This document shows, piece by piece, positions 11,601 through 39,032 of a stretch of 49,087 nucleotides of DNA. Both the position numbers and the translations under genes were made by a program. The notes under the pieces are model-generated. The model ran no database searches, had not been told where the DNA came from, and worked only from the letters and a program-made list of their open reading frames with translations. The DNA is from a virus. Where the stretch lies: the IMG/VR virus record IMGVR_UViG_3300035126_000127, positions 1 to 49,087 of that record; one strand, 5' to 3'. How positions within the stretch are numbered: the stretch's first letter is position 1; the number at the start of each line of letters is the position of its first letter.

Positions 11601-12578
11601 TCACTTCTCGCCTAAACCAACTTGTTTGACTTTGATGCGAGCCTTGTTAAGGATAGAACCAGCAAGAGGAACATAACCCAGATCATCAGCAATACCTTGT
11701 GCTTTAGTGCTCAGAGCATAGTTCAGTGCCTCACGGACTGCTTCTGCCTTACCAGCAGGATAACCACTCTTATAGGCAAGAATCCAGGTCAGAGTGGAGA
11801 TAGGATAGGCAAGGGCGCCTGCGGGGTTGGGATCTTCACCAGCAAGAGTCACAGGGTCAATCTTGATACCGTTCAGAGCAGCAGCACCAGTCACAGCGGA
11901 AGGACCAACGAACTTACCTGCTTTATTCTGGAGGACGGCAGCTTGGAGTTTATTTACGCGAACGAAACCCGTGTTCACATAACCGATAGCACCAGGAGTG
12001 TTCTTAATGGTTCCAGCAACACCCTCATTACCCTTAGCACCGACACCAACTGGCCAGTTCACGGACTTACCAACACCAGGAGCCCAACCACCGAACGCAT
12101 CCAGTGAGTTGGTGAAGGCATAAGTGGTTCCAGAACCATCAGAACGATGAACCGTCACCATCTTACCAGCAGCACAACCAACTTCCTTCCAGTCCTTGAT
12201 GTGTCCCATAAAGATATGGACAACTTGTTTCTGAGTCAGTTTCAGTTTACAACCAGGTTTGTTATAGGCAACGGCAATCGTTCCGCCGACCATAGGAATC
12301 TGAACGACACCACGCTTGACCTTTGCTGCTTCCTTTGCCTTGATAGGTTCATCAGTAGCACCAAAGTCAACAGTTCCAGCAACAAACTGGCGAACGCCAG
12401 CACCAGAACCAACGGATTGATAATTGACTTTTTCACCAGTGGTGGAAGAATAATCAACGAACCAACGTTGATAGATTGGCGCAGGGAAGGTAGCACCTGC
12501 TCCGTTAATAGCAGGTCCAGCAAATGCAGCAGCAGGAGCAAGAGCAAGACCGAGTGTAGCAATGTGTTTGAGTTTCAT
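11601..12578 (-). CDS. pstS: Phosphate ABC transporter substrate-binding protein PstS
   Basis: 325 aa, full length. Signal peptide MKLKHIATLGLALAPAAAFA (residues 1-20). Family motifs: INGAGATFPAPIYQRW, YQSVGSGAGVRQF (phosphate loop), DFGATDEPI, VHRSDGSGTTYAFT (second phosphate loop), NTPGAIGYVNTG, YPISTLTWIL. Periplasmic phosphate-binding protein; the phage version is known to raise phosphate uptake by infected cyanobacteria. A Pho box lies immediately before the gene and its terminator follows. Next to the porin gene, which likely shares the response. Confidence 0.95.
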   Translation of the reverse strand: MKLKHIATLGLALAPAAAFAGPAINGAGATFPAPIYQRWFVDYSSTTGEKVNYQSVGSGAGVRQFVAGTVDFGATDEPIKAKEAAKVKRGVVQIPMVGGTIAVAYNKPGCKLKLTQKQVVHIFMGHIKDWKEVGCAAGKMVTVHRSDGSGTTYAFTNSLDAFGGWAPGVGKSVNWPVGVGAKGNEGVAGTIKNTPGAIGYVNTGFVRVNKLQAAVLQNKAGKFVGPSAVTGAAALNGIKIDPVTLAGEDPNPAGALAYPISTLTWILAYKSGYPAGKAEAVREALNYALSTKAQGIADDLGYVPLAGSILNKARIKVKQVGLGEK

Positions 12579-12591
12579 TGTAGAAAATCGT

Positions 12592-12610
12592 AGGTTAAGA
12601 AAAAGTTAAA
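12592..12610 (-). promoter_or_regulatory. Pho box upstream of pstS
   Basis: Minus strand TTTAACTT-TTT-CTTAACCT: two 8-mers (pattern PyTTAAPyPy-T) 3 nt apart, the cyanobacterial Pho-box layout. It ends only 13 nt before the ATG, leaving TACGAT or TACAAT as the -10, so the leader would be very short and no ribosome site is visible. Confidence 0.65.
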
Positions 12611-12624
12611 TAGTCCCTTACACC

Positions 12625-12649
12625 AAAAAACCTCTCCGAAGAGAGGTTT
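12625..12649 (-). terminator. Terminator of the porin gene
   Basis: AAACCTCTC-TTCG-GAGAGGTTT hairpin (9 bp with a UUCG tetraloop) continuing into T's, 20 nt after the porin stop. Confidence 0.88.
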
Positions 12650-12668
12650 AGAGGTATCGTAGATATTA

Positions 12669-14156
12669 TCAGAAACGGAAGGTCGTCTGAATCACACCAC
12701 CATAGTTAGAAGAAGCATTCTTCAGACCTTGGTTGTTAGACACATAGAACACAGCAGGAGTGATGCTGATGTTGTCGCTAACCTTGTAACGATAGAAAGC
12801 TTCCCACATCAGAGCATCTTTGCTCAGAGTAGGTGCGTTACCAGGAGCACCGATGGCGAAACCAGCGGCATTACCCTTAACAAACACATCGCTCCACTGA
12901 AGACCTGTCATCCAAGTCTGAGAATTGGTTGCAGCATTAGGAGTAGATGTACCACTCACATAGTTCCAACCATAAGCAGCGGAGATAGAAGGAATGATAC
13001 CCGACTTCTTGGGTTGCCAATAAGCATTCAGAGAATAACCATTGGAGGTCTGGTTGGCAGCAAGAGTACCAGCATTGCCAGCAACACCATTAAAGGTACG
13101 GATACGGGTGCCTTCAGTACCATTACGATAACCGAATGCAACACCATACTGAGGAGCACGATAACCGACCTGTGCCAGAGTATTCAGAGCACCAGAGGCA
13201 TCAAATTCACCTTTGGTTGAATCAGAACCATTCTGGGCAACATAGTTGATACCAGCAACGAAACCACCCTTACCTTTCTTACCAGGTTGAACCCACTGAG
13301 CACCAAAACCAGAACCAGTTGCCTTGTTATAGACGCCAGGAGCACCAGCAACAGCAAAGAAGTCAAGAATGTCCGACTTATAAGCAGTGGGCAACCAAGC
13401 CATTTCAGTGTTACGAACCAGAGCACCAGCAGTCAGGGTCACACCTTTGGTCAGACCAGGGAAACTGTAGTACAAACGGTCAAGTTGTACTGCGTTGGAG
13501 AAACTTTCTGCCTTGTCCAGTTTGAACAGAGAAGAAGATGAACCAAAGGGTTGACTGGAGAAGTTACCAGTACGCAGACGGGTCTTGAGTAGATCCTTAC
13601 CAGTAAAGGAAGTATCAAAACTCAGACGGAGGTCATAGTTAAATGCTGTATTACCAACATTAGAGTTGTTGGAAAGACGAGCACCTTCTACACCACCAAG
13701 AACGAAGGTTGCTTCACCCTTGAGTTTTGTGGTAGTAGAGAACTGAGTTGCTTGGAGTTGACCAACCTGAGTTTCCAGTTTGGCGACACGACCACGAATG
13801 ACTTGGAGTTCCTTAGCAAACTCATTCGCAAGACGATTGAGTTCATCGGTAACTTCAGTCACACGATCAAGGCAAGCATTCAGGAGTGCTGCTGCCTCAA
13901 AACGAGTCATGGATTGACCGCCACCAAAGGTGCCGTTGGGGTAACCAGCAACACAACCATAACGTTCTACGAGGTTGCTGAGTGCCTGATATGCCCAATC
14001 CGTAGGACGGACATCAGACAGTTGTGTGACGCTAGAAACCTGTTCTGTGGAAGTGTATTGGTTGACTGCTGCCATATTAAGATCTGCGGCATTCGCAGCA
14101 ACAGGAGCAACCATTCCCAAAGCAACAGGTGCAAGCATCAGTTGTTTGATTTTCAT
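12669..14156 (-). CDS. Outer-membrane porin with SLH domain (OprB/SomA type)
   Basis: 495 aa. Signal peptide 1-23 (ending AANA), then an S-layer homology domain (SDVRPTDWAYQALSNLVERY, GYPNGTFGGGQSMTRFEAAALL, residues about 47-95), a coiled coil (VTDELNRLANEFAKELQ to KLETQVGQL), and a beta-barrel ending in Phe (TTFRF), the usual C-terminal signal for outer-membrane insertion. This is the layout of cyanobacterial OprB/Som porins, which anchor to peptidoglycan by SLH. Phage versions are found beside pstS. The promoter has a Pho box, so it probably raises outer-membrane phosphate or solute entry during infection. Confidence 0.88.
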   Translation of the reverse strand: MKIKQLMLAPVALGMVAPVAANAADLNMAAVNQYTSTEQVSSVTQLSDVRPTDWAYQALSNLVERYGCVAGYPNGTFGGGQSMTRFEAAALLNACLDRVTEVTDELNRLANEFAKELQVIRGRVAKLETQVGQLQATQFSTTTKLKGEATFVLGGVEGARLSNNSNVGNTAFNYDLRLSFDTSFTGKDLLKTRLRTGNFSSQPFGSSSSLFKLDKAESFSNAVQLDRLYYSFPGLTKGVTLTAGALVRNTEMAWLPTAYKSDILDFFAVAGAPGVYNKATGSGFGAQWVQPGKKGKGGFVAGINYVAQNGSDSTKGEFDASGALNTLAQVGYRAPQYGVAFGYRNGTEGTRIRTFNGVAGNAGTLAANQTSNGYSLNAYWQPKKSGIIPSISAAYGWNYVSGTSTPNAATNSQTWMTGLQWSDVFVKGNAAGFAIGAPGNAPTLSKDALMWEAFYRYKVSDNISITPAVFYVSNNQGLKNASSNYGGVIQTTFRF

Positions 14157-23231: not shown

Positions 23232-23239
23232 TATTTATC
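23232..23239 (-). promoter_or_regulatory. Late-type motif GATAAATA
   Basis: GATAAATA overlapping the lysozyme stop codon, about 100 nt before the barrel-protein ATG. Confidence 0.5.
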
Positions 23240-23900
23240 CTTTTTTCCAAGCTTCACCTTCTGCCTTTCTTCTACGAGCAAGTCCTGCTTCTACATTAGA
23301 ACCAGGATTACGATAGAGATAAAGAGCATCAGGAACCAAGTCCCACTCTTTATTCTTCAGGCGTTTAGTAATAGTATTAAAGTTATCGCCACCGTAGAAA
23401 CCAGCGCCGAGATTATAAGCAAAGCTGAGCAGAGCGCCTCTTTTTCCATCTGACATTTCACTCCAATGTGGAATTTTTCTTAAAGCAGGGAGAAACTCTT
23501 TCTTACACTGCTCAATGAGAAGTGAATCTGCTTCTGCCTGTGTGAGGGTATCACCAAGTTTGAATGCTGAACCGTCCTTCTTGCGAGTGGAACCCCAACC
23601 GATTGTGATTGGAAGTCCACCAGTCAAAGGGTCAGGATATGCCTTTAGATGGCATCCTTCAAACTCTTTAATTAACTTGATGCCCATTTGTGGAACATCA
23701 TCACCACCTGTTACTGGAGCTGCGGCAGCAGGGGCTGGCGCAGCACTAGTCTTTTTTCCTCTATAAATCTCCGCCCAGTCTACATTGTCCTCAAGGAACT
23801 TGACGGGTAGATTATCTTCTAACCACTGAACTGCTTTGACGTGGTTGGGGTTTCTTTCATCATAGAACTGAAAGAAATTGTGTAAGTCAACTCTTGCCAT
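23235..23900 (-). CDS. GH24 lysozyme (endolysin) with shared N-terminal domain
   Basis: 221 aa. Residues 1-45 (DLHNFFQFYDERNPNHVKAV...EDNLP) form a domain shared with the C39-like peptidase at 23999. An Ala/Pro linker follows (residues 52-66). The catalytic domain has KEFEG (Glu81), AYPD (Asp90) and ITIGWGS (Thr99), the Glu-Asp-Thr triad of T4 lysozyme-like GH24 muramidases, with a short insertion before the Thr, then AYNLGAGFYGG and LARRRKAEGEAW. Cuts peptidoglycan glycan strands; no signal peptide, so it needs a holin or tail delivery. Clear GGAGG ribosome site. Confidence 0.9.
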   Translation of the reverse strand: MARVDLHNFFQFYDERNPNHVKAVQWLEDNLPVKFLEDNVDWAEIYRGKKTSAAPAPAAAAPVTGGDDVPQMGIKLIKEFEGCHLKAYPDPLTGGLPITIGWGSTRKKDGSAFKLGDTLTQAEADSLLIEQCKKEFLPALRKIPHWSEMSDGKRGALLSFAYNLGAGFYGGDNFNTITKRLKNKEWDLVPDALYLYRNPGSNVEAGLARRRKAEGEAWKKG

Positions 23901-24024
23901 TGTTGCCTCCGAAGTATTTTTGATAAAGTTGATTTGCTTCTACGTGTTTACCGTGATTCGTCAGATCTTTGATACGTTGTAAGATCTTTCTCTTAAAATT
24001 AATCGAAGATTCTTCCCCAGCCAT
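23887..24024 (-). CDS. Small helical protein, 45 aa
   Basis: MAGEESSINFKRKILQRIKD... from ATG at 24024 (strong GGAGG before it), basic and helical, ending YFGGNNGKS. It overlaps the peptidase gene by 26 nt and the lysozyme start by 14 nt, bridging the two lytic enzymes. A longer frame extends into the peptidase C-terminus. No family recognised. Confidence 0.5.
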   Translation of the reverse strand: MAGEESSINFKRKILQRIKDLTNHGKHVEANQLYQKYFGGNNGKS

Positions 24025-24670
24025 CGTTGCCTCCTGGACACCAACGGTGCTTAAGAACTGCTTTGGTGTAGATGGTTTTTTTACCATTCGTCACAGGTCC
24101 AGTGTAGTTATCATTGAGAGAACCATATGGATCATTTACAAAGTATCCTTTGCCATCTGGTGTCTTACCGATGACTACACACATGTGCCCACCAGTAGGT
24201 GCAGAAAGAGAACCGCGATGCAGAATACCAATAACAACAGGTTTCCCAGCATCAAGACTTTTATCAATATCAGCAAAAGACAGATTGTAACTAAAGTGTG
24301 ACTTAACTCCATAACCTGCCAAAACTTTTGTTTGGACAGCATGATCCGTCGTGTCACCAATCGCAAATACTTTCGTGACATATTCATCATCACCTTTGAT
24401 GCTACCTGGCTTGAGGAAAGCAAGACACATAGCACATGATGAACTGTTACAAGTTCTATGTGCATCTCTGTAGTTGTCTACTTGATTGAAATAAGGAACT
24501 GCGAGAACCTCTGGCGTAGGTGGTTTGGTTCTGAACATTCCAATCCAATCAGTTTCTGCATCATCCAGAAATTCAGCAGGTAGGTTATCCTCTAACCATT
24601 GAACTGCTGCTACATGATTTGAATTCTTTTCGTCGTAAAATTTAAAAAAATTGTGAAGGTCTAGTGTCAT
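23999..24670 (-). CDS. C39/papain-like cysteine peptidase with shared N-terminal domain
   Basis: 223 aa. Residues 1-46 repeat the lysozyme's N-terminal domain (DLHNFFKFYDEKNSNHVAAV, then WLEDNLP), about 70% identical by eye. The catalytic domain has VPYFNQVDNYRDAHRTCNSS (Cys74 as nucleophile), TGGHMCVVIG (His162) and FVNDPYG (Asp180), the order of the peptidase C39-like family 2 (papain fold). It may cleave peptidoglycan peptides or another envelope substrate. The start codon overlaps the previous gene's end. Confidence 0.78.
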   Translation of the reverse strand: MTLDLHNFFKFYDEKNSNHVAAVQWLEDNLPAEFLDDAETDWIGMFRTKPPTPEVLAVPYFNQVDNYRDAHRTCNSSSCAMCLAFLKPGSIKGDDEYVTKVFAIGDTTDHAVQTKVLAGYGVKSHFSYNLSFADIDKSLDAGKPVVIGILHRGSLSAPTGGHMCVVIGKTPDGKGYFVNDPYGSLNDNYTGPVTNGKKTIYTKAVLKHRWCPGGNDGWGRIFD

Positions 24671-31986: not shown

Positions 31987-32544
31987 TCAGCTTTCTGGAT
32001 ATCTTGCGTCGTCTTCAGCATCACCTGTAATCGTGCTTCCAGCAACTAAAGTTTCAGATTTGACTCTGAAGTTACCGTGATTGTCAACATAAGTTGTAAC
32101 GCCAACCCAACCAGCGTGTGCTACTGCGTAAGCGGCATTCTTTCCACCAACAGTTCTACCAGCGGCAACGTTTGCTTCAGTTGTGCCAACACCAAATACA
32201 GCAGAGAATCTATTTGACTTTACTTCAGGAGCAAAGTATTGACCATCCTCAAGAGTATACTTTGGTTTTTGAGTTACTGTATATCCAGCACCAGCAATCG
32301 TGTTGAGTGTTGGATGAGGTCTCAAGAACTGTGTAGAACCGATTGAAAGTTGAGTGGCAGAGGTAATTCCAGTGATCACTGCCTGACCATAGGTTGCTCC
32401 AGCGCCAACGACTAGAATATCGCCCGTTGAGATACCAGCAGTTACAAAGGTTGTACCACTTCCAAGTACAATTTCAGTGCCGAGATTAATTGTAATAGTT
32501 CCTGTTAGATTGCTAAAAGAATCTCTATTGCCCCAAAGAGCCAT
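31987..32544 (-). CDS. Beta-rich virion structural protein, 185 aa
   Basis: N-terminal half is a Gly/Thr-rich beta sandwich-like sequence (GTITINLGTEIVLGSGTTFV, ISTGDILVVGAGATYG), followed by a polar C-terminus (VGGKNAAYAVAHAGWVGVTT). Such decoration/neck-type proteins are common in cyanomyovirus late regions. A TATAAATA late motif lies 32 nt upstream. Role inferred from composition and promoter only. Confidence 0.6.
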   Translation of the reverse strand: MALWGNRDSFSNLTGTITINLGTEIVLGSGTTFVTAGISTGDILVVGAGATYGQAVITGITSATQLSIGSTQFLRPHPTLNTIAGAGYTVTQKPKYTLEDGQYFAPEVKSNRFSAVFGVGTTEANVAAGRTVGGKNAAYAVAHAGWVGVTTYVDNHGNFRVKSETLVAGSTITGDAEDDARYPES

Positions 32545-32575: not shown

Positions 32576-32583
32576 TATTTATA
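32576..32583 (-). promoter_or_regulatory. Late-type promoter motif TATAAATA
   Basis: TATAAATATCTG directly at the end of the terminator T-tract, 32 nt before the ATG at 32544. Confidence 0.75.
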
Positions 32584-32844: not shown

Positions 32845-34422
32845 TCAGTCAAATCTTGAATGCATCATGTCTTGTGCTCTTTGAGCGGCAGCGCGACGAG
32901 CAGATACTTTTTGAGCGGGAGATTTTGGTCCACCATACTCACCAGCAGCAGGTGGTTTTTTACCTGGTTCTTTTTTCTTTCCTCTTGGTTGAACACCCAT
33001 TCTGCCAGTGCCCATAGACTTAGCAACCAACTCAAATGCTGGATTGCGTGGTTTTCTAGGAGTTCCTGCTACTTTATCTTCTTTTCTTCTTTCATCAAGA
33101 ACTTCACCTTCTGGTTCATAATCCATCTTAAGACCCATTGCTCTTAACTTATTCTTAACCAGATTTACTTTGGTTGGGATTGATCTTGGATCTTCAGCAC
33201 CATTCTCATCCTTTTTGAGTTTTGGTTCATTCTCATCTTCACATTCACACTCTTCACCAAGTTTTTTACCGCCACGACGAGCAGTTAAAACAGCAGCAAT
33301 CGCAGCCTTTCTTCTTTCTTCTTTGGTTCTTCCAGCAAGTTGAGGAGATTTAGAACCATAGAAATCTTTGATAGCCGCTCCCATATCAGTTTTAGCAGTA
33401 ATCTTCTCATCTAGAGAATCACCTTCTGGTTCATAAGAAGCGGAAAGAGATGCCAAGTTTACACCTTTTTGAGCAGCCATTTTCTGCTTCATCGCCAAAT
33501 CTTTTTGTGCCGTATCAACTCTTTGTTTTGACATTAATACTTGATTAATGGCAGACTGATTTTGTTGTGGTTTTTGTTGCTGTGGTTGTGGTTTTACCTG
33601 TTCTTCTGGTTTTACTTGTTCCTTAATTCCCTTGTTTTCATCAGGAAAAACCTTGATCAATTTCGCATTATTTACACCTTCTCCGGTAATCTTTTTTTCA
33701 CCTCCCTCTTCTTTTTTCTTTTCAATCAATTCGGCAAAACCATCTTTCCAATTGAAATCTTCTTTGGCAATTGCTTTACTACGAACCTTTCTACGATTTA
33801 AAAGATACTTATCAGTCTTATCGTGATCACCATCATTATCAATGTCCTTATCTTCTTTACCAACTGGATCTAAACCTTTACCAGATTTTGCTTTAGCAGT
33901 GGAAGAACCTTTTTCTTTTTCAGACTTTGAAGGTTCACCATATCCAGTCATCTCAACTGAAGAGATATTTGGATTCGCACGAAGTTCAGAGATCTTGGCA
34001 CGGGTCGCTATTCTTACATAAGTATTACCAGTCTTCTTATCTGTGACTCTGATCTTATATTTTTTATCTTCCATCTCATTAAGTTGCTGAAGATACTCAT
34101 TCTCTTCAACAACAACCTCTTCTTCTACACCCTCAACAAATACCTTATATAATGCAGATACAATTGTATCAGTAGCAAGTCTCTTGGTATCTACCAGATC
34201 TTCTCCAAGAAGCATTTGCTTTGCTCTTGCCTTTACCGCTGGAGCAGCACTTGATTTGGCAAGTTGTGACATATATGCTTTAGAAACTTGGGCAGGATTC
34301 ATTTTCGTGCCCTTGTTCATCGCTTGCCTTACTTTGTAGCGAGTATCATAAGCAAGTTGTCTTGCCTGCTTTTCAACTTTTTCCTTTGCTCCAGCGGCAG
34401 GAGATGCTGTAGGTTTTTCCAT
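32845..34422 (-). CDS. Large basic virion-type protein, 525 aa
   Basis: Low-complexity, charged protein rich in Lys, Glu, Pro, Ala and Gln. Near residue 130 it has a small folded motif (KKYKIRVTDKKTGNTYVRIA). Two copies of YEPEG(D/E)xLDE (about residues 328 and 432) contain LDE, which matches the (L/I)xE cut sites of T4-type prohead protease. A basic C-terminus (SARRAAAQRAQDMMHSRFD) follows. Together this suggests an internal or core head protein processed during assembly. Starts 12 nt after the nucleotidyltransferase gene. Confidence 0.6.
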   Translation of the reverse strand: MEKPTASPAAGAKEKVEKQARQLAYDTRYKVRQAMNKGTKMNPAQVSKAYMSQLAKSSAAPAVKARAKQMLLGEDLVDTKRLATDTIVSALYKVFVEGVEEEVVVEENEYLQQLNEMEDKKYKIRVTDKKTGNTYVRIATRAKISELRANPNISSVEMTGYGEPSKSEKEKGSSTAKAKSGKGLDPVGKEDKDIDNDGDHDKTDKYLLNRRKVRSKAIAKEDFNWKDGFAELIEKKKEEGGEKKITGEGVNNAKLIKVFPDENKGIKEQVKPEEQVKPQPQQQKPQQNQSAINQVLMSKQRVDTAQKDLAMKQKMAAQKGVNLASLSASYEPEGDSLDEKITAKTDMGAAIKDFYGSKSPQLAGRTKEERRKAAIAAVLTARRGGKKLGEECECEDENEPKLKKDENGAEDPRSIPTKVNLVKNKLRAMGLKMDYEPEGEVLDERRKEDKVAGTPRKPRNPAFELVAKSMGTGRMGVQPRGKKKEPGKKPPAAGEYGGPKSPAQKVSARRAAAQRAQDMMHSRFD

Positions 34423-34434
34423 TGAGAAGATTAA

Positions 34435-35706
34435 TTACTTACTTTTCCTATACTTATTTATGAAATTCAATCCGAAGTTCTTTTGACCGAATGCCAGATT
34501 TTCTTTTCCACTTTCAGAACCTGGTGTTTGTTGAGCGGCATACTTTAAAAATCCAGTTGTGCCAACCAAAGTATTTGGTTTTCCAGGAAGTCTCATTTTC
34601 TTATCCATTCTCTTTTCCTGGTATGTTTCCATCACGTCCTTAATCCATGACTTGAACATAATGCTGTCTTCGGTGACACAAATCAGATAGTTTGTTCCTC
34701 TACGAATAATGCGACCAACAAGACCTGTATTTAAATTTTCTACAAGTTGCCCAACAGTAAAGATTTTCTCTTGTACATAATTTTCACGAAGATTTTTCCA
34801 ATCAAACTTGGGAGCAATTTCCCACAAACTCCAACCCTCTTTAATATTCATTGCTGAACGAAGAGTATTATAAAGTTCCTTTGCCTGCTTATCATTCATT
34901 GAGGAAGGAACTCCCTTACGGAAAGTTTTAAAGTCACCTTCTGCTGCCGCTTTGCGTTGCTTGGATGCTGACATTCCAGACACATCATCTTCGGCATCGG
35001 GATCCCTTTCACCAGCAGAACGAACTTCTATATTGTCAAACTGGTAAAGTTTTCCATTATAGTTGCCAGAAAGATTTTCAAACTCTTTGACTCTATCACC
35101 ACCACCAACGATTCTTACATTCGCGTATCCGTCCATATGTGCTTTCTTGAGCACATCAAAGATCGTGCGATTTGCTGGATCATTCACAATCTTTTCACTA
35201 TGCTTTGGATACATCTGTCTCATAATTGAAACTTTTGTATCAGCATCTAGAGGATTCTTTTTCTTATCCTGACTTCTTGAAGGGACAATAATATAGTCAC
35301 CATCATCAGAAGATGTTGCGACCGTATCTAAAAGTTTTTCGTGTCCTGTGGTAGGTGGATTAAAACGACCAAAAGCAATTGTCAGAGTTCCTTTTGTTTT
35401 TTCTACTTCTGGTGGAACCATCTCCACTGGTTGTTGTGCCTGTGGTTCTTGCTGTGGTGCTGGTTCTGTTTCGTATGATGTTTGAGATAATTTCTTTTCT
35501 TTATCAGATTGCGATGGATCTTGTTGCCCGATTCTCTGCCGCTTATTATAAAACTTTAATTGACCTCTTTCAGTTTTTGCTACAAATTCTCCAGTTCTTT
35601 TATCGTACCATCCACCGTGACCATCGCTAACAAGACCCATTCTCTGGGCTTGTTGAACGGCAGTTGACAAGGATGCTTCCGATATGAATTGGAAAAAGTT
35701 TTTCAT
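34435..35706 (-). CDS. Nucleotidyltransferase-domain protein with capsid-targeting-like N-terminus
   Basis: 423 aa. N-terminal MKNFFQFISEAS closely matches the T4 internal-protein targeting sequence (MKTYQEFIAEA), with SE/A at the expected prohead protease cut. Then a Gln/Pro-rich linker and a cytidylyltransferase-like domain: AFGRFNPPTTGHEKLLDTVA (GH of the HIGH motif, residues 111-130), RIVGGGDRVKEF, and SGMSASKQRKAA (243-254, like ISSTxxR). C-terminal about 130 aa contain a structural beta domain (FTVGQLVENLNTGLVGRIIR). It may activate or modify a nucleotide substrate. Head packaging is inferred. Confidence 0.72.
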   Translation of the reverse strand: MKNFFQFISEASLSTAVQQAQRMGLVSDGHGGWYDKRTGEFVAKTERGQLKFYNKRQRIGQQDPSQSDKEKKLSQTSYETEPAPQQEPQAQQPVEMVPPEVEKTKGTLTIAFGRFNPPTTGHEKLLDTVATSSDDGDYIIVPSRSQDKKKNPLDADTKVSIMRQMYPKHSEKIVNDPANRTIFDVLKKAHMDGYANVRIVGGGDRVKEFENLSGNYNGKLYQFDNIEVRSAGERDPDAEDDVSGMSASKQRKAAAEGDFKTFRKGVPSSMNDKQAKELYNTLRSAMNIKEGWSLWEIAPKFDWKNLRENYVQEKIFTVGQLVENLNTGLVGRIIRRGTNYLICVTEDSIMFKSWIKDVMETYQEKRMDKKMRLPGKPNTLVGTTGFLKYAAQQTPGSESGKENLAFGQKNFGLNFINKYRKSK

Positions 35707-35936
35707 TATTTGTTTTTACAGATTTCAGCAGTTATTGCTTTTTCGTTTGTGACAATGTATCCTAAAGCACTTTGTCTCATCTTTATGTATTTATTCTTTA
35801 ATTTTTCTGCCTTACAAAAATTGATCTGCCTATCAAACGTCAGATACACATGAGCGAGAAAATCATTATACTTTCTTTTTGGAGTTTTAGAATCGGTTTC
35901 AAAGGATTGGATTAATTCTTTAATTTGCGAATTCAT
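35706..35936 (-). CDS. Hypothetical protein, 76 aa
   Basis: MNSQIKELIQSFETDSKTPK..., helical and basic (KYNDFLAHVYLTFDRQINF, KLKNKYIKMRQ) with two Cys. TAATG overlap with the nucleotidyltransferase gene; its start overlaps the stop of the 480-aa gene. No family recognised. Confidence 0.55.
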   Translation of the reverse strand: MNSQIKELIQSFETDSKTPKRKYNDFLAHVYLTFDRQINFCKAEKLKNKYIKMRQSALGYIVTNEKAITAEICKNK

Positions 35937-37375
35937 TGTTTTACATCAAGTTTTCCGTGAGGGGCAAATCTATTTCCAATTACAGATATATTTCTCTTAA
36001 TTGAGAGATAAAATAAATCTGTCCAAAACTCTGCTGTTTTCCCTTTGACACTATTTAAACACTCGTAAAAAAATGCTAACTGCATTAATTTAGATTGTGC
36101 TACTGCTTTTTTCTTATCATTACCTGATCTATACATTGAAAGTATAGCATCTTTAAAATTTTCATATCCTTTATCTTCCTTTATATTAATTTTTGATTTT
36201 AAAAAACGATACATTTTTTCATAATTTTGACTGGTATTACTAAACTCAGGTGCGTTTTTTGGATAATCTTGATGTCTATTTTTAAAATCAATTTTATTAC
36301 TACTTAACATCTTTGAAACCAGGTCAACAGGTGCGGCGCCGCCTCTTCCACCACTATTTTTTATAACACTTTCAAATTTTAAATTACTAAAAGTATCATT
36401 TTGGGTCGGCGTCCTTAATATATTAATAGTATAATTGCCAAATAAAACATATGAACCTTGCTGGATACTATCGTTCTTTATTGTGAAATCTATTTCAAAT
36501 TTTATATCTTTAAATTTAATTTTTTCAACTGAAGCGAACTCTATTTTTTTACTGTCCATATTCACATATTTAAATTTCGCAGACTGATTATCTTTAACCT
36601 TTTTTAAAGAGAGTCCAATCAACTTATTATCTTGTATCATTTCCAATAAAATATTATTTAATTCAACCAATTTTGCGGTTCCATCTTTCTGTATTGCTTT
36701 ATCTATTTTCTTAACTACTTGAGATTTATTTTTTACAACCCAAATATCTGCAGGATTCCATGTAGTATAGTTGCCGACCTTTTCTCCAGTATCGGTTGTT
36801 ACTAACGCACATTGCTTTTGTATAAACCCCATCAAATCTTGACCACCGTGTTCAAAAATATCCCATTGAGGAGGTTGAAATTTTTCAAAAAATGCTTTTT
36901 GATGCTCAAAATAACTATGAACCCATTCATTAATTTTCCCCTTATTTGAACTTCCGAAAATTTTTTCTAAACCATTTCTTGTTTCGGTATCAGACAATAT
37001 ATCAGCAGCACTAGAAAATTTTTTATTTTTTTCCAAAACTCTAGTCATTATATAAGCACTTCCTTCCTCTTGAATATTGGTAGGAACTGATGGTGCGGAT
37101 CCAAATTGTACAACTTTTATCTTTAATACACTTTCACCATCACTAAATTTAAAATCATCTAATTTATAAGAACCAATAAAATTTTCTTCAAGTAGTGCCA
37201 ATACACCTGAAAAAATTTTATCTTTCTGCGTTTTTGTCAGGGATCGAAAAAAAGACAATTCTACCTTATCAGCGCCAGGTAACGCATCATCTAGTTTTAT
37301 ATTGGATATTTTTTTGTCTATAAGTTTTTCAAAAAATTTATAGACATCATTCACGTTTGCAACTTTTTTTGCCAT
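35933..37375 (-). CDS. Unknown protein, 480 aa, AT-rich gene
   Basis: MAKKVANVNDVYKFFEKLID... Long helical and beta segments, many Lys/Asn/Ile/Phe. Landmarks: HGGQDLMGFIQKQC (around 175), NYTTWNPADIWVVKN (around 200), and a Gly-rich NSGGRGGAAPVD (around 345). The NPADIW segment with the following Lys might be part of a nuclease-like site but this is weak. The gene looks more AT-rich than its neighbours. It sits between the two head-targeted candidates and could belong to the same function. No family can be assigned. Confidence 0.55.
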   Translation of the reverse strand: MAKKVANVNDVYKFFEKLIDKKISNIKLDDALPGADKVELSFFRSLTKTQKDKIFSGVLALLEENFIGSYKLDDFKFSDGESVLKIKVVQFGSAPSVPTNIQEEGSAYIMTRVLEKNKKFSSAADILSDTETRNGLEKIFGSSNKGKINEWVHSYFEHQKAFFEKFQPPQWDIFEHGGQDLMGFIQKQCALVTTDTGEKVGNYTTWNPADIWVVKNKSQVVKKIDKAIQKDGTAKLVELNNILLEMIQDNKLIGLSLKKVKDNQSAKFKYVNMDSKKIEFASVEKIKFKDIKFEIDFTIKNDSIQQGSYVLFGNYTINILRTPTQNDTFSNLKFESVIKNSGGRGGAAPVDLVSKMLSSNKIDFKNRHQDYPKNAPEFSNTSQNYEKMYRFLKSKINIKEDKGYENFKDAILSMYRSGNDKKKAVAQSKLMQLAFFYECLNSVKGKTAEFWTDLFYLSIKRNISVIGNRFAPHGKLDVKQ

Positions 37376-37379
37376 AAGA

Positions 37380-38837
37380 TTACTCCTGCTGTTGATTACC
37401 GTTTGATTTTTGCTCCTTTTTCTTTTTGGACAATTGCTGCAATGGTGCCGATGGTGTTGATTGTTGTGTCTGTGCTTGAGGTTTTTGTTGCTGTTGTGGT
37501 TCGGTATTCACTGGTTCAGTTCTCTGTGGTTGTGCCTGTTGTTGAGGTTTTCTTTCTTGTGCTGCTGTCTGTGCTTGAGCAGCTCTTTGAGATAGAGTAT
37601 CTAGAGTTGATCTTGCCGTGTTGACTGCTTGTGCTGCAACCTCTTGTTTTGCTGCGTGTTGTTGTGCAGCACCAGGATTATTTTGTAAGTAATACCTATT
37701 TTTTCTAGAAACTGGAGTGCCATCAGGTTTAGTAATTACTCGTGCTGCTGCTTGTGCTTTTTCAGCATCATCTAGTGACTTTTGTGCTTGAGATGTTTGT
37801 TTAGAAAAATCTGAAAAACTAGACTGCCTGGAAACTGGTTCTTCTGGTCTATAGTCAATCTTTAAATTTCCAGGTCTATTGCTACCTTTAGGAAGAGCTA
37901 ATCTTGGTCTCGCACTCTTTTGCTGTTCTGATGGTTTAGCAGTTGCTTCCTTACTTTTAGTTTTTCCAGTAAGAACAAGTCCTGCGGTTCCTTCATCACC
38001 TTTAAACTTCCCCTTTCCAGAAGTCGCAACTTGAGATAACAATCTTTCAAATTGAGGATACTTATCAAGAAGTTTATCTGATAGACCTTGAGAAACATTC
38101 TTTAAACTTTGTTTTTGTTTTTCAGGATCTGATGCTGCTCCTGCCGTTTTTTGAAGACGACCTATTGCTGAAAGTCTTTCAGCATCATTCATAATTTCTT
38201 TTTCAATTTTTTGCCTTTCTTCTTTGGATTTACTACCATGAAATTTCTTAACATATTCTTTTGCGGCAATCTTATACATGCCTTTCAATTCACCACCTTC
38301 TGCTGATGCCAGTTGAGCACCAACACCTTTCTTCATACTAACTCCTCTTCTGTCTTTAGGATTATCTGGATTGTATATTTCCAAATCACCCTTGGGGGTT
38401 TTATCAACTCCACCAGCACCTTTAAATTTTTTAGATAGTTCTGCGGCACCACTTCCAGTAACTCTGGAGGAAAATCCTTTTTCAATAGCACTTCGCAGTT
38501 TACCCTGTTTACTGAGAGCCAATAAACCACTTACAGAATCATCTAAAAAGTCATTATAAGGTTTCTCATCACCAGATTCCCTTCCCTGCGCTTTAGCAAA
38601 TTCTTCTTCTCCAGCATTCCTAAAATTTAATGGATGTTCTGGATTCTTCTTTGCTGCTTCTACTTCTTTCTTTATCTCCTTTTCTGCTTCTTCAAAATCT
38701 TTAGATAATATGAGATCTCTTACTTTTGTATTATCTGAATTTGCAATAAAATAATTCCAAAGTTTACTTTGGGAATTTTCATCATGTGTTTTATTTAACT
38801 TCTCGCAAATTAATGTAAAATCTACAAAAGACTTCAT
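37380..38837 (-). CDS. Unknown Gln-rich protein with capsid-targeting-like start and nuclease-like core
   Basis: 485 aa. N-terminus MKSFVDFTLICEKLNK resembles the MK-x-F/Y-x-x-F-x-x-E capsid-targeting pattern, with ICE as a possible protease site. Residues about 125-190 contain GSGAAELSKKF, TPKGDLEIYNPD, RGVSMKKGVGAQLASAEGGE; the order D-x-E ... S-x-K-K ... Q-L resembles PD-(D/E)xK nucleases. The C-terminal 150 residues are Gln/Ala/Pro-rich (disordered). Late motif CTAAATA lies 28 nt upstream, after tRNA-Leu. A packaged nuclease is a hypothesis. Confidence 0.5.
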   Translation of the reverse strand: MKSFVDFTLICEKLNKTHDENSQSKLWNYFIANSDNTKVRDLILSKDFEEAEKEIKKEVEAAKKNPEHPLNFRNAGEEEFAKAQGRESGDEKPYNDFLDDSVSGLLALSKQGKLRSAIEKGFSSRVTGSGAAELSKKFKGAGGVDKTPKGDLEIYNPDNPKDRRGVSMKKGVGAQLASAEGGELKGMYKIAAKEYVKKFHGSKSKEERQKIEKEIMNDAERLSAIGRLQKTAGAASDPEKQKQSLKNVSQGLSDKLLDKYPQFERLLSQVATSGKGKFKGDEGTAGLVLTGKTKSKEATAKPSEQQKSARPRLALPKGSNRPGNLKIDYRPEEPVSRQSSFSDFSKQTSQAQKSLDDAEKAQAAARVITKPDGTPVSRKNRYYLQNNPGAAQQHAAKQEVAAQAVNTARSTLDTLSQRAAQAQTAAQERKPQQQAQPQRTEPVNTEPQQQQKPQAQTQQSTPSAPLQQLSKKKKEQKSNGNQQQE

Positions 38838-38864: not shown

Positions 38865-38871
38865 TATTTAG
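38865..38871 (-). promoter_or_regulatory. Late-type motif CTAAATA
   Basis: TTCTAAATAGAATAT just after tRNA-Leu, 28 nt before the ATG at 38837. It would start the head-protein operon 38837 to 32845. Confidence 0.6.
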
Positions 38872-38874
38872 AAA

Positions 38875-38954
38875 TGCCCAAGAGAGGACTCGAACCTCCA
38901 CGCCGAAGCACATGATCCTAAGTCATGCGTGTATACCAATTTCACCACTTGGGC
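38875..38954 (-). tRNA. tRNA-Leu (UAG)
   Basis: Acceptor GCCCAAG/CTTGGGC with A discriminator, anticodon stem CATGA/TCATG, loop CTTAGGA (TAG), T-loop GTTCGAGTC. 80 nt with a variable arm. Confidence 0.94.
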
Positions 38955-38956
38955 AA

Positions 38957-39029
38957 TGGAGAATAGGAGATTCGAACTCCTGACCTCCTGAATGCAAATC
39001 AGGCGCACTACCAACTGTGCTAATTCCCC
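38957..39029 (-). tRNA. tRNA-Ala (UGC)
   Basis: Acceptor GGGGAAT/ATTCTCC (one G-T), anticodon stem CCTGA/TCAGG with loop TTTGCAT (TGC), T-loop GTTCGAATC. 73 nt, 2 nt upstream of tRNA-Leu. Confidence 0.94.
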
Positions 39030-39032
39030 AAA

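Follow-up and report, generated by a model that had tools for sequence, protein, structure and literature searches.

A nucleotidyltransferase of a T4-like cyanophage with a putative T4-type capsid targeting sequence: probable packaging in the phage head

The nucleotidyltransferase gene and its neighbourhood

The window, that is, the whole stretch of 49,087 bases that was analysed, belongs to a T4-like cyanophage whose nearest phage records are S-SRM01 and S-SKS1. It contains a leftward gene cluster bounded by tRNA genes (38874-39030) on one side and by primase and nrdA on the other. The nucleotidyltransferase (NTase) gene lies in this cluster, and its neighbours encode head-type proteins and proteins of unknown function. 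The features are as follows (a slash marks a known or predicted cut site).

34435-35706, minus strand: NTase open reading frame, 423 aa, ATG start, comprising tag, module, linker, nucleotidyltransferase domain and C-terminal domain
35674-35706, minus strand: capsid-targeting-like tag MKNFFQFISE/A, residues 1-11, predicted cut Glu10/Ala11 (from sequence and conservation)
35539-35667, minus strand: second N-terminal module, approximately residues 14-56, QAQRMGLVSDGHGGWYDKRTGEFVAKT (from sequence comparison)
35386-35538, minus strand: Gln/Pro-rich low-confidence linker, residues 57-107 (from sequence; pLDDT about 50 around residues 70-90)
34909-35385, minus strand: nucleotidyltransferase domain, approximately residues 108-266, with motifs GRFNPPTTGH and SGMSASKQR (from Pfam, alignment and structure)
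34627-34809, minus strand: conserved C-terminal domain, residues 300-360, VGRIIRRGTNYLICVTEDSIMFKSW (from alignment)
37380-38837, minus strand: 485-aa ORF starting with MKSFVDFTLICE, IPI-like (MKTFKEFT); no Pfam, PHROG or PADLOC family
35933-37375, minus strand: 480-aa ORF of the same cluster, PHROG 1462
32845-34422, minus strand: 525-aa ORF downstream of the NTase, PHROG 3326, tagless
31987-32544, minus strand: head-type protein starting with MALWGNRDS, PHROG 3086, a weak match to a head-protein PHROG
38865-38871, minus strand: CTAAATA, late-promoter-like motif 34 nt before the 485-aa ORF (consensus match only)
35788-35795, minus strand: AATAAATA, late-promoter-like motif 89 nt before the NTase start (consensus match only)
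34455-34462, minus strand: CATAAATA, late-promoter-like motif 40 nt before the 525-aa ORF (consensus match only)
32576-32583, minus strand: TATAAATA, late-promoter-like motif 39 nt before the gene of the head-type protein (consensus match only)

The NTase begins with MKNFFQFISEASLS. An in-frame stop is located four codons 5' of its ATG, and thus a much longer start is impossible. The Pfam domain CTP_transf_like matches residues 110-211 (E 4e-8, exceeding the curated cut-off), and the GRFxPxTxGH nucleotidyltransferase motif named by an earlier, sequence-only reading of this DNA is indeed found inside this match, at residues 113-122. PHROG 395, a cytidyltransferase family, matches the protein with E 3.6e-109, and matches to the ORF occur in 558 phage records. 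When the NTase of the cyanophage S-CREM2 was used as the query, a single relative was recovered. Modules resembling the second N-terminal module were also found behind the tags of S-CREM2 gp12 and S-CRM01 g128. The counterpart of the C-terminal domain is encoded by a separate gene in P-HM2, S-CAM1 and ACG-2014h; the products of these genes start with MKSLSDF or MKDFKKL, which are weakly tag-like and were not counted.

Genes occupying the positions of the NTase neighbours in S-SCSM1 encode virion proteins. One of them, ORF92, corresponds to the 525-aa ORF by position only. In other cyanophages, the position of the MALWGNRDS protein is taken by proteins annotated as head, virion structural or tail fibre proteins. 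Four gene starts of the cluster are preceded, at a distance of 34-40 nt, by late-promoter-like octamers or heptamers, all of them consensus matches only. Two relatives of the 485-aa ORF keep similar starts, MKSFEDF and MKSFENF. Judging by these starts, this ORF is a possible second tagged and packaged protein, a weaker candidate than the NTase.

Two other regions of the window deserve mention. Adjoining minus-strand genes at 23235-23900 and 23999-24670 encode proteins that have a similar N-terminal stretch, LHNFF[QK]FYDE..N.NHV.AVQWLEDNLP, and differing catalytic domains, phage lysozyme and C39 peptidase. A phage-borne solute-binding (PstS-type) protein is encoded at 11601-14156 (minus strand) beside an OprB/SLH porin gene.

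The N-terminal tag and its conservation

The NTase start had been likened to a T4 capsid targeting sequence. In the T4 GenBank record, internal protein IPIII starts with MKTYQEFIAEASVV (MKTYQEFIAE/A) and IPI with MKTFKEFTSTTTPVSTITEA (MKTFKEFTSTTT). Thus the reference of the earlier reading is IPIII specifically, and the resemblance of MKNFFQFISE/A to it holds. The first ten residues of IPIII suffice for targeting (Mullaney and Black 1996); positions 4 and 7 were mapped to targeting and positions 8 and 10 to processing (PMC9026906). The NTase tag occupies residues 1-10, the very beginning of the protein, with phenylalanine at both targeting positions, and with I8, E10 and A11 at the site of processing. 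The features common to this tag and those of T4 IPI, IPII and IPIII are the length of ten residues, the key positions (K2, aromatic 4, F7, I/L 8, E10, A11), the gp21-type cut site and the unrelated bodies behind the tag. However, the T4 internal proteins are small, basic and not known as enzymes, whereas the protein of the window has a 413-residue enzyme body and an extra module, and occurs in Kyanoviridae-type phages. Another parallel is the T4 ADP-ribosyltransferase Alt, which is a head-borne enzyme, processed by gp21 and ejected into the cell (PMC9026906). It differs from the NTase in fold and chemistry, has a pro-peptide of 7 residues, and is also cut at the C-terminus.

To estimate chance, a T4-like start was defined as MK.[FY]..F[IL].E[AGS]. 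Given the N-terminal residue frequencies of another cyanophage, its probability is about 3e-6 per protein, and about 2e-4 such starts are expected in the approximately 60 ORFs of the window. Even with a looser pattern, the NTase is the sole matching ORF of the window.

The tag is conserved among NTase orthologues. Eighty orthologues from IMG/VR yielded 41 distinct 16-residue N-termini. All 41 have MK at the start, F or rarely L at position 4, and F at position 7; glutamate is at position 10 in 35 of them and at position 9 in the other 6, where the tag is one residue shorter. This set is partly biased, since MKNFFQFI was among the six search peptides; the same pattern is seen in aligned orthologues from phage records, which were collected by whole-protein homology or NTase annotation. 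The column entropy is about zero at positions 2, 4, 7 and 10, position 8 is occupied by L, I, F or M in nearly all aligned orthologues, and positions 3, 5, 6 and 9 are variable. The conserved positions include 4, 7, 8 and 10, those mapped in T4. This coincidence is an independent test of the putative tag, one that was out of reach of the sequence-only reading. The NTases of S-CREM2, S-CRM01 and S-SZBM1 retain the tag and lack the DGHGGWYD module together with the linker (approximately residues 20-105 of the window protein, about 80 residues); thus the tag is apparently selected by itself. It is not present on every NTase, as those of P-HM2, S-CAM1 and ACG-2014h are tagless and begin directly at the domain.

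The predicted cut site can be compared with that of the major capsid protein, which in T4 is cut after residue 65 (PMC9026906). The corresponding sites, near residues 50-65, are FLTE/A in T4, FLAE/A in S-SCSM1, LLTE/A in S-CREM2 and ILTE/A in S-SZBM1, where the cuts of the three cyanophage proteins are presumed from sequence. The sequence FISE/A of the NTase agrees with this pattern. Each of the three cyanophages has an annotated prohead protease; the 49-kb window lacks gp21, gp22 and gp23, so that the phage's own protease and scaffold are not seen in this fragment. Of the earlier claim that the tag is cut after glutamate, the site stands, being conserved and matching that of the major capsid proteins, and this makes cleavage of the NTase after Glu10 likely.

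Further tagged proteins were sought among 2.9 million viral contigs of IMG/VR with a DNA pattern for MK.F..F[LIM].EA. At least 123 matches at no fewer than 120 loci were found, compared with 32 matches in the whole collection for a scrambled tag made of the same codons. A match was placed at a gene start if an in-frame stop occurred at most 30 codons upstream and the ORF had at least 60 aa or ran off the contig; this was true of all 123 listed tag matches and of 4 of the 32 scrambled controls (p 7e-27). Other T4-like proteins are encoded on the contigs of 114 of the 120 listed tagged loci (95%) and of 14 of the 32 control loci (p 3e-10). The scan, together with the low expectation in the window, rules out chance as the origin of the tag. 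The tagged proteins among the matches listed form 56 k-mer clusters, an upper bound on the number of unrelated families (about 55), since several of them consist of divergent NTases or have the DGHGGWYD module in common. NTases recognized by motif are the commonest tagged family among these matches (at least 47 of the 123 proteins). Other tagged cargo among them has GNAT, DPBB, M78-type, DUF6267 and DUF5661 domains. As the pattern requires alanine at position 11, the tagged proteins listed are a sample and the counts of matches and loci are lower bounds.

Tagged proteins in virions

The presence of the NTase in cyanophage virions is already published. Tagged orthologues or relatives were identified by mass spectrometry in CsCl-purified virions of S-SCSM1 (PMC9602691), S-SZBM1 (PMC9146016) and S-CREM2 (PMC10665884). 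The S-SCSM1 protein, ORF91, is 48% identical to the NTase of the window over the full length and starts with MKSFLQFLKEAA (MKSFLQFLKEA); S-SZBM1_140 starts with MRFRQFIIEAVA (MRFRQFIIEA), and S-CREM2 gp154 with MKNFSSFLTEAD (MKNFSSFLTEA). Detection was modest in S-SZBM1 and S-CREM2, 2-3 peptides. The available text of the three papers (PMC9602691, PMC9146016, PMC10665884) gives virion presence and does not mention a targeting tag. In the open-access literature, subscription papers being outside the scope, we found no report of a T4-type targeting sequence on cyanophage proteins.

The NTase family served to define a strict tag pattern, with which all 219 proteins of S-CREM2 were examined. It matches 4 of the 52 virion proteins and none of the 167 others (Fisher p 0.003). 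The four are gp6 (SAM lyase), gp13, gp14 (kinase) and gp154 (NTase). If the NTase, which defined the pattern, is set aside, 3 of 51 virion proteins remain (p 0.012). A looser pattern adds virion proteins gp15 and gp136 and one non-virion protein, gp30. Thus in S-CREM2, a relative of the phage of the window, unrelated proteins of one virion share the tag, as do the internal proteins of T4. The reported peptide counts are 19 for the SAM lyase and 21 for the kinase; the fold of the former is supported by Pfam (E 2e-19), and the latter has a weak Pfam match.

In S-SCSM1, the tag pattern was found on the NTase, on the 106-aa ORF30, which lies beside virion genes and was not detected in virions, and on one further protein, likely a chance match. 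Most virion proteins of the NTase cluster have no tag, the NTase being the sole tagged member. Thus the tag and detection in virions coincide incompletely, and the possibility that the tag is a general mark of all virion proteins of this cluster is ruled out.

Two S-CREM2 proteins merit separate comment. The clearly tagged virion SAM lyase gp6 (L099:3837-5081) is plausibly a packaged anti-restriction enzyme. The virion protein gp12 (L099:7704-10313) has a tag-like LRFASFMAEA after 15 extra residues, followed by a DGHGSY module; its annotation as Cas9 (Csn1) was not upheld by any Pfam or PADLOC match.

The enzyme, its substrate and its possible role

An AlphaFold2 model of the NTase was built from 62 alignment rows (the window and IMG/VR sequences only). 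It has a mean pLDDT of 81, with block means above 92 for residues 101-230, and residues 4-12 are predicted to be helical. Foldseek gave 36 matches to the model at E at most 0.001, and each of them is CoaD or an adenylyltransferase of the NMN/NaMN type (NadD, NadM, archaeal NMNAT); TM scores normalised by target are mostly 0.55-0.72 and identity is about 11-18%. The predicted Rossmann-type fold with (H/T)xGH and SxTxxR-type motifs (GRFNPPTTGH and SGMSASKQR) is that expected of an NMN adenylyltransferase, and the catalytic motifs GRFxPxTxGH and SxSxxR are conserved across the family alignment. Thus the predicted fold and motifs are similar to those of NadM, NadD, NadR and CoaD. However, identity is low and curated NMNAT models score below their cut-offs: NCBIfam yielded weak matches to NadR, NadD, NMNAT, CoaD and a general domain model, all far below cut-off (21.6 bits for TIGR01526, the cut-off being 341). 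A sequence search of solved structures retrieved no homologue at E 0.01, and PADLOC matched neither the NTase nor the 485-aa ORF. Several tagged NTases (L111, L123, L129 and L185) have a P-loop kinase (zeta-toxin-like, AAA_33) fused behind, which recalls the bifunctional NadR.

Judging from the model, the NTase is likely an ATP-using adenylyltransferase, and NMN may be named, tentatively, as the leading candidate substrate. The authors of the S-SCSM1 and S-CREM2 studies also proposed NAD supply for the virion NTase. The cargo could instead be a cytidylyltransferase of cell-envelope chemistry, with glycerol-3-phosphate or a sugar as its substrate, as suggested by the name of PHROG 395 and by many records annotated as cytidyltransferase or cytitidyltransferase. 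We consider this rather unlikely, as the best 36 structural matches are all NMN/NaMN adenylyltransferases or CoaD, and even the weak NCBIfam matches are to NadR, NadD, NMNAT, CoaD and the general domain model.

As to localization, the N-terminus might be a conserved part of the enzyme, e.g. an oligomerisation helix, and the NTase in virion preparations a carry-over from the lysate. Indeed, the authors of the S-SCSM1 and S-CREM2 studies cautioned that highly expressed proteins may outlast CsCl purification, and peptides are few in two phages. However, the same ten residues head many families that are otherwise visibly dissimilar, the tag outlasts the loss of the neighbouring module, the other tagged proteins of S-CREM2 (SAM lyase, kinase) are well covered by peptides, and the strict tag is found on no S-CREM2 protein off the virion list. 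This makes carry-over highly improbable. Alternatively, the tag might direct the protein into the core of the prohead, where it would serve as scaffold or in determining head size; it would then be packaged and cut and have no role after ejection. T4 IPIII influences head assembly (PMC9026906), the genes next to that of the NTase encode proteins of the head or virion, and motifs similar to late promoters occur upstream. On the other hand, the catalytic motifs are kept family-wide, and other tagged cargo (SAM lyase, kinase, GNAT and P-loop kinase domains) is effector-like, and a purely structural role is rather unlikely. Head packaging, which the sequence-only reading had claimed, is strongly supported by three observations: conservation of the T4-mapped residues, enrichment of the tag in virion proteins, and orthologues in the virions of three other cyanophages. 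Very probably, the T4-like cyanophage uses a T4-type capsid targeting sequence to package an adenylyltransferase-type NTase inside its head.

The mechanism may be as follows. During prohead assembly the first ten residues would bind the scaffold core, as shown for T4, and the prohead protease would then cut after Glu10, judging from the conserved site, and free the enzyme in the maturing head. By analogy with T4 Alt and IPI, the NTase would accompany the DNA out of the head and be active in the newly infected cell ahead of phage gene expression; such ejection seems somewhat more probable than retention, and the action in the first moments of infection, suggested earlier, is plausible by the same analogy, which extends to the internal proteins in general. 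The favoured reaction, tentatively, is transfer of an adenylyl group to NMN or to another phosphorylated precursor of a cofactor, and it might raise NAD or a related cofactor at entry.

Cyanophage virions hold enzymes that have no structural role, and the authors of the proteomes were unable to separate passengers from contaminants. A tag that matches the T4-mapped residues and is confined to virion proteins in the one fully tested phage, S-CREM2, provides a testable rule. With it, packaged proteins of viruses that abound in the ocean, many of them from families without known function, may be predicted from sequence alone, and proteins possibly carried into hosts may be listed. The tag also points to an old origin of the T4 loading mechanism, which in another phage family would carry enzymes. 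A broader proposal, which is quite doubtful at present, is that a single ten-residue tag serves T4-like phages of the sea and of fresh water to load their heads with many unrelated proteins, most of them uncharacterized. The commonest would be an adenylyltransferase, which at entry would provide NAD or a related cofactor and so blunt NAD-depleting immunity of the host before any phage gene is expressed.

Among the tagged proteins from IMG/VR, small ones at L121:3736-4149, L145:1211-1858 and L203:1085-1591 contain YHGT...I...GF-type motifs. They have no Pfam match and by eye look similar to ADP-ribosyltransferases, and thus might be Alt-like.
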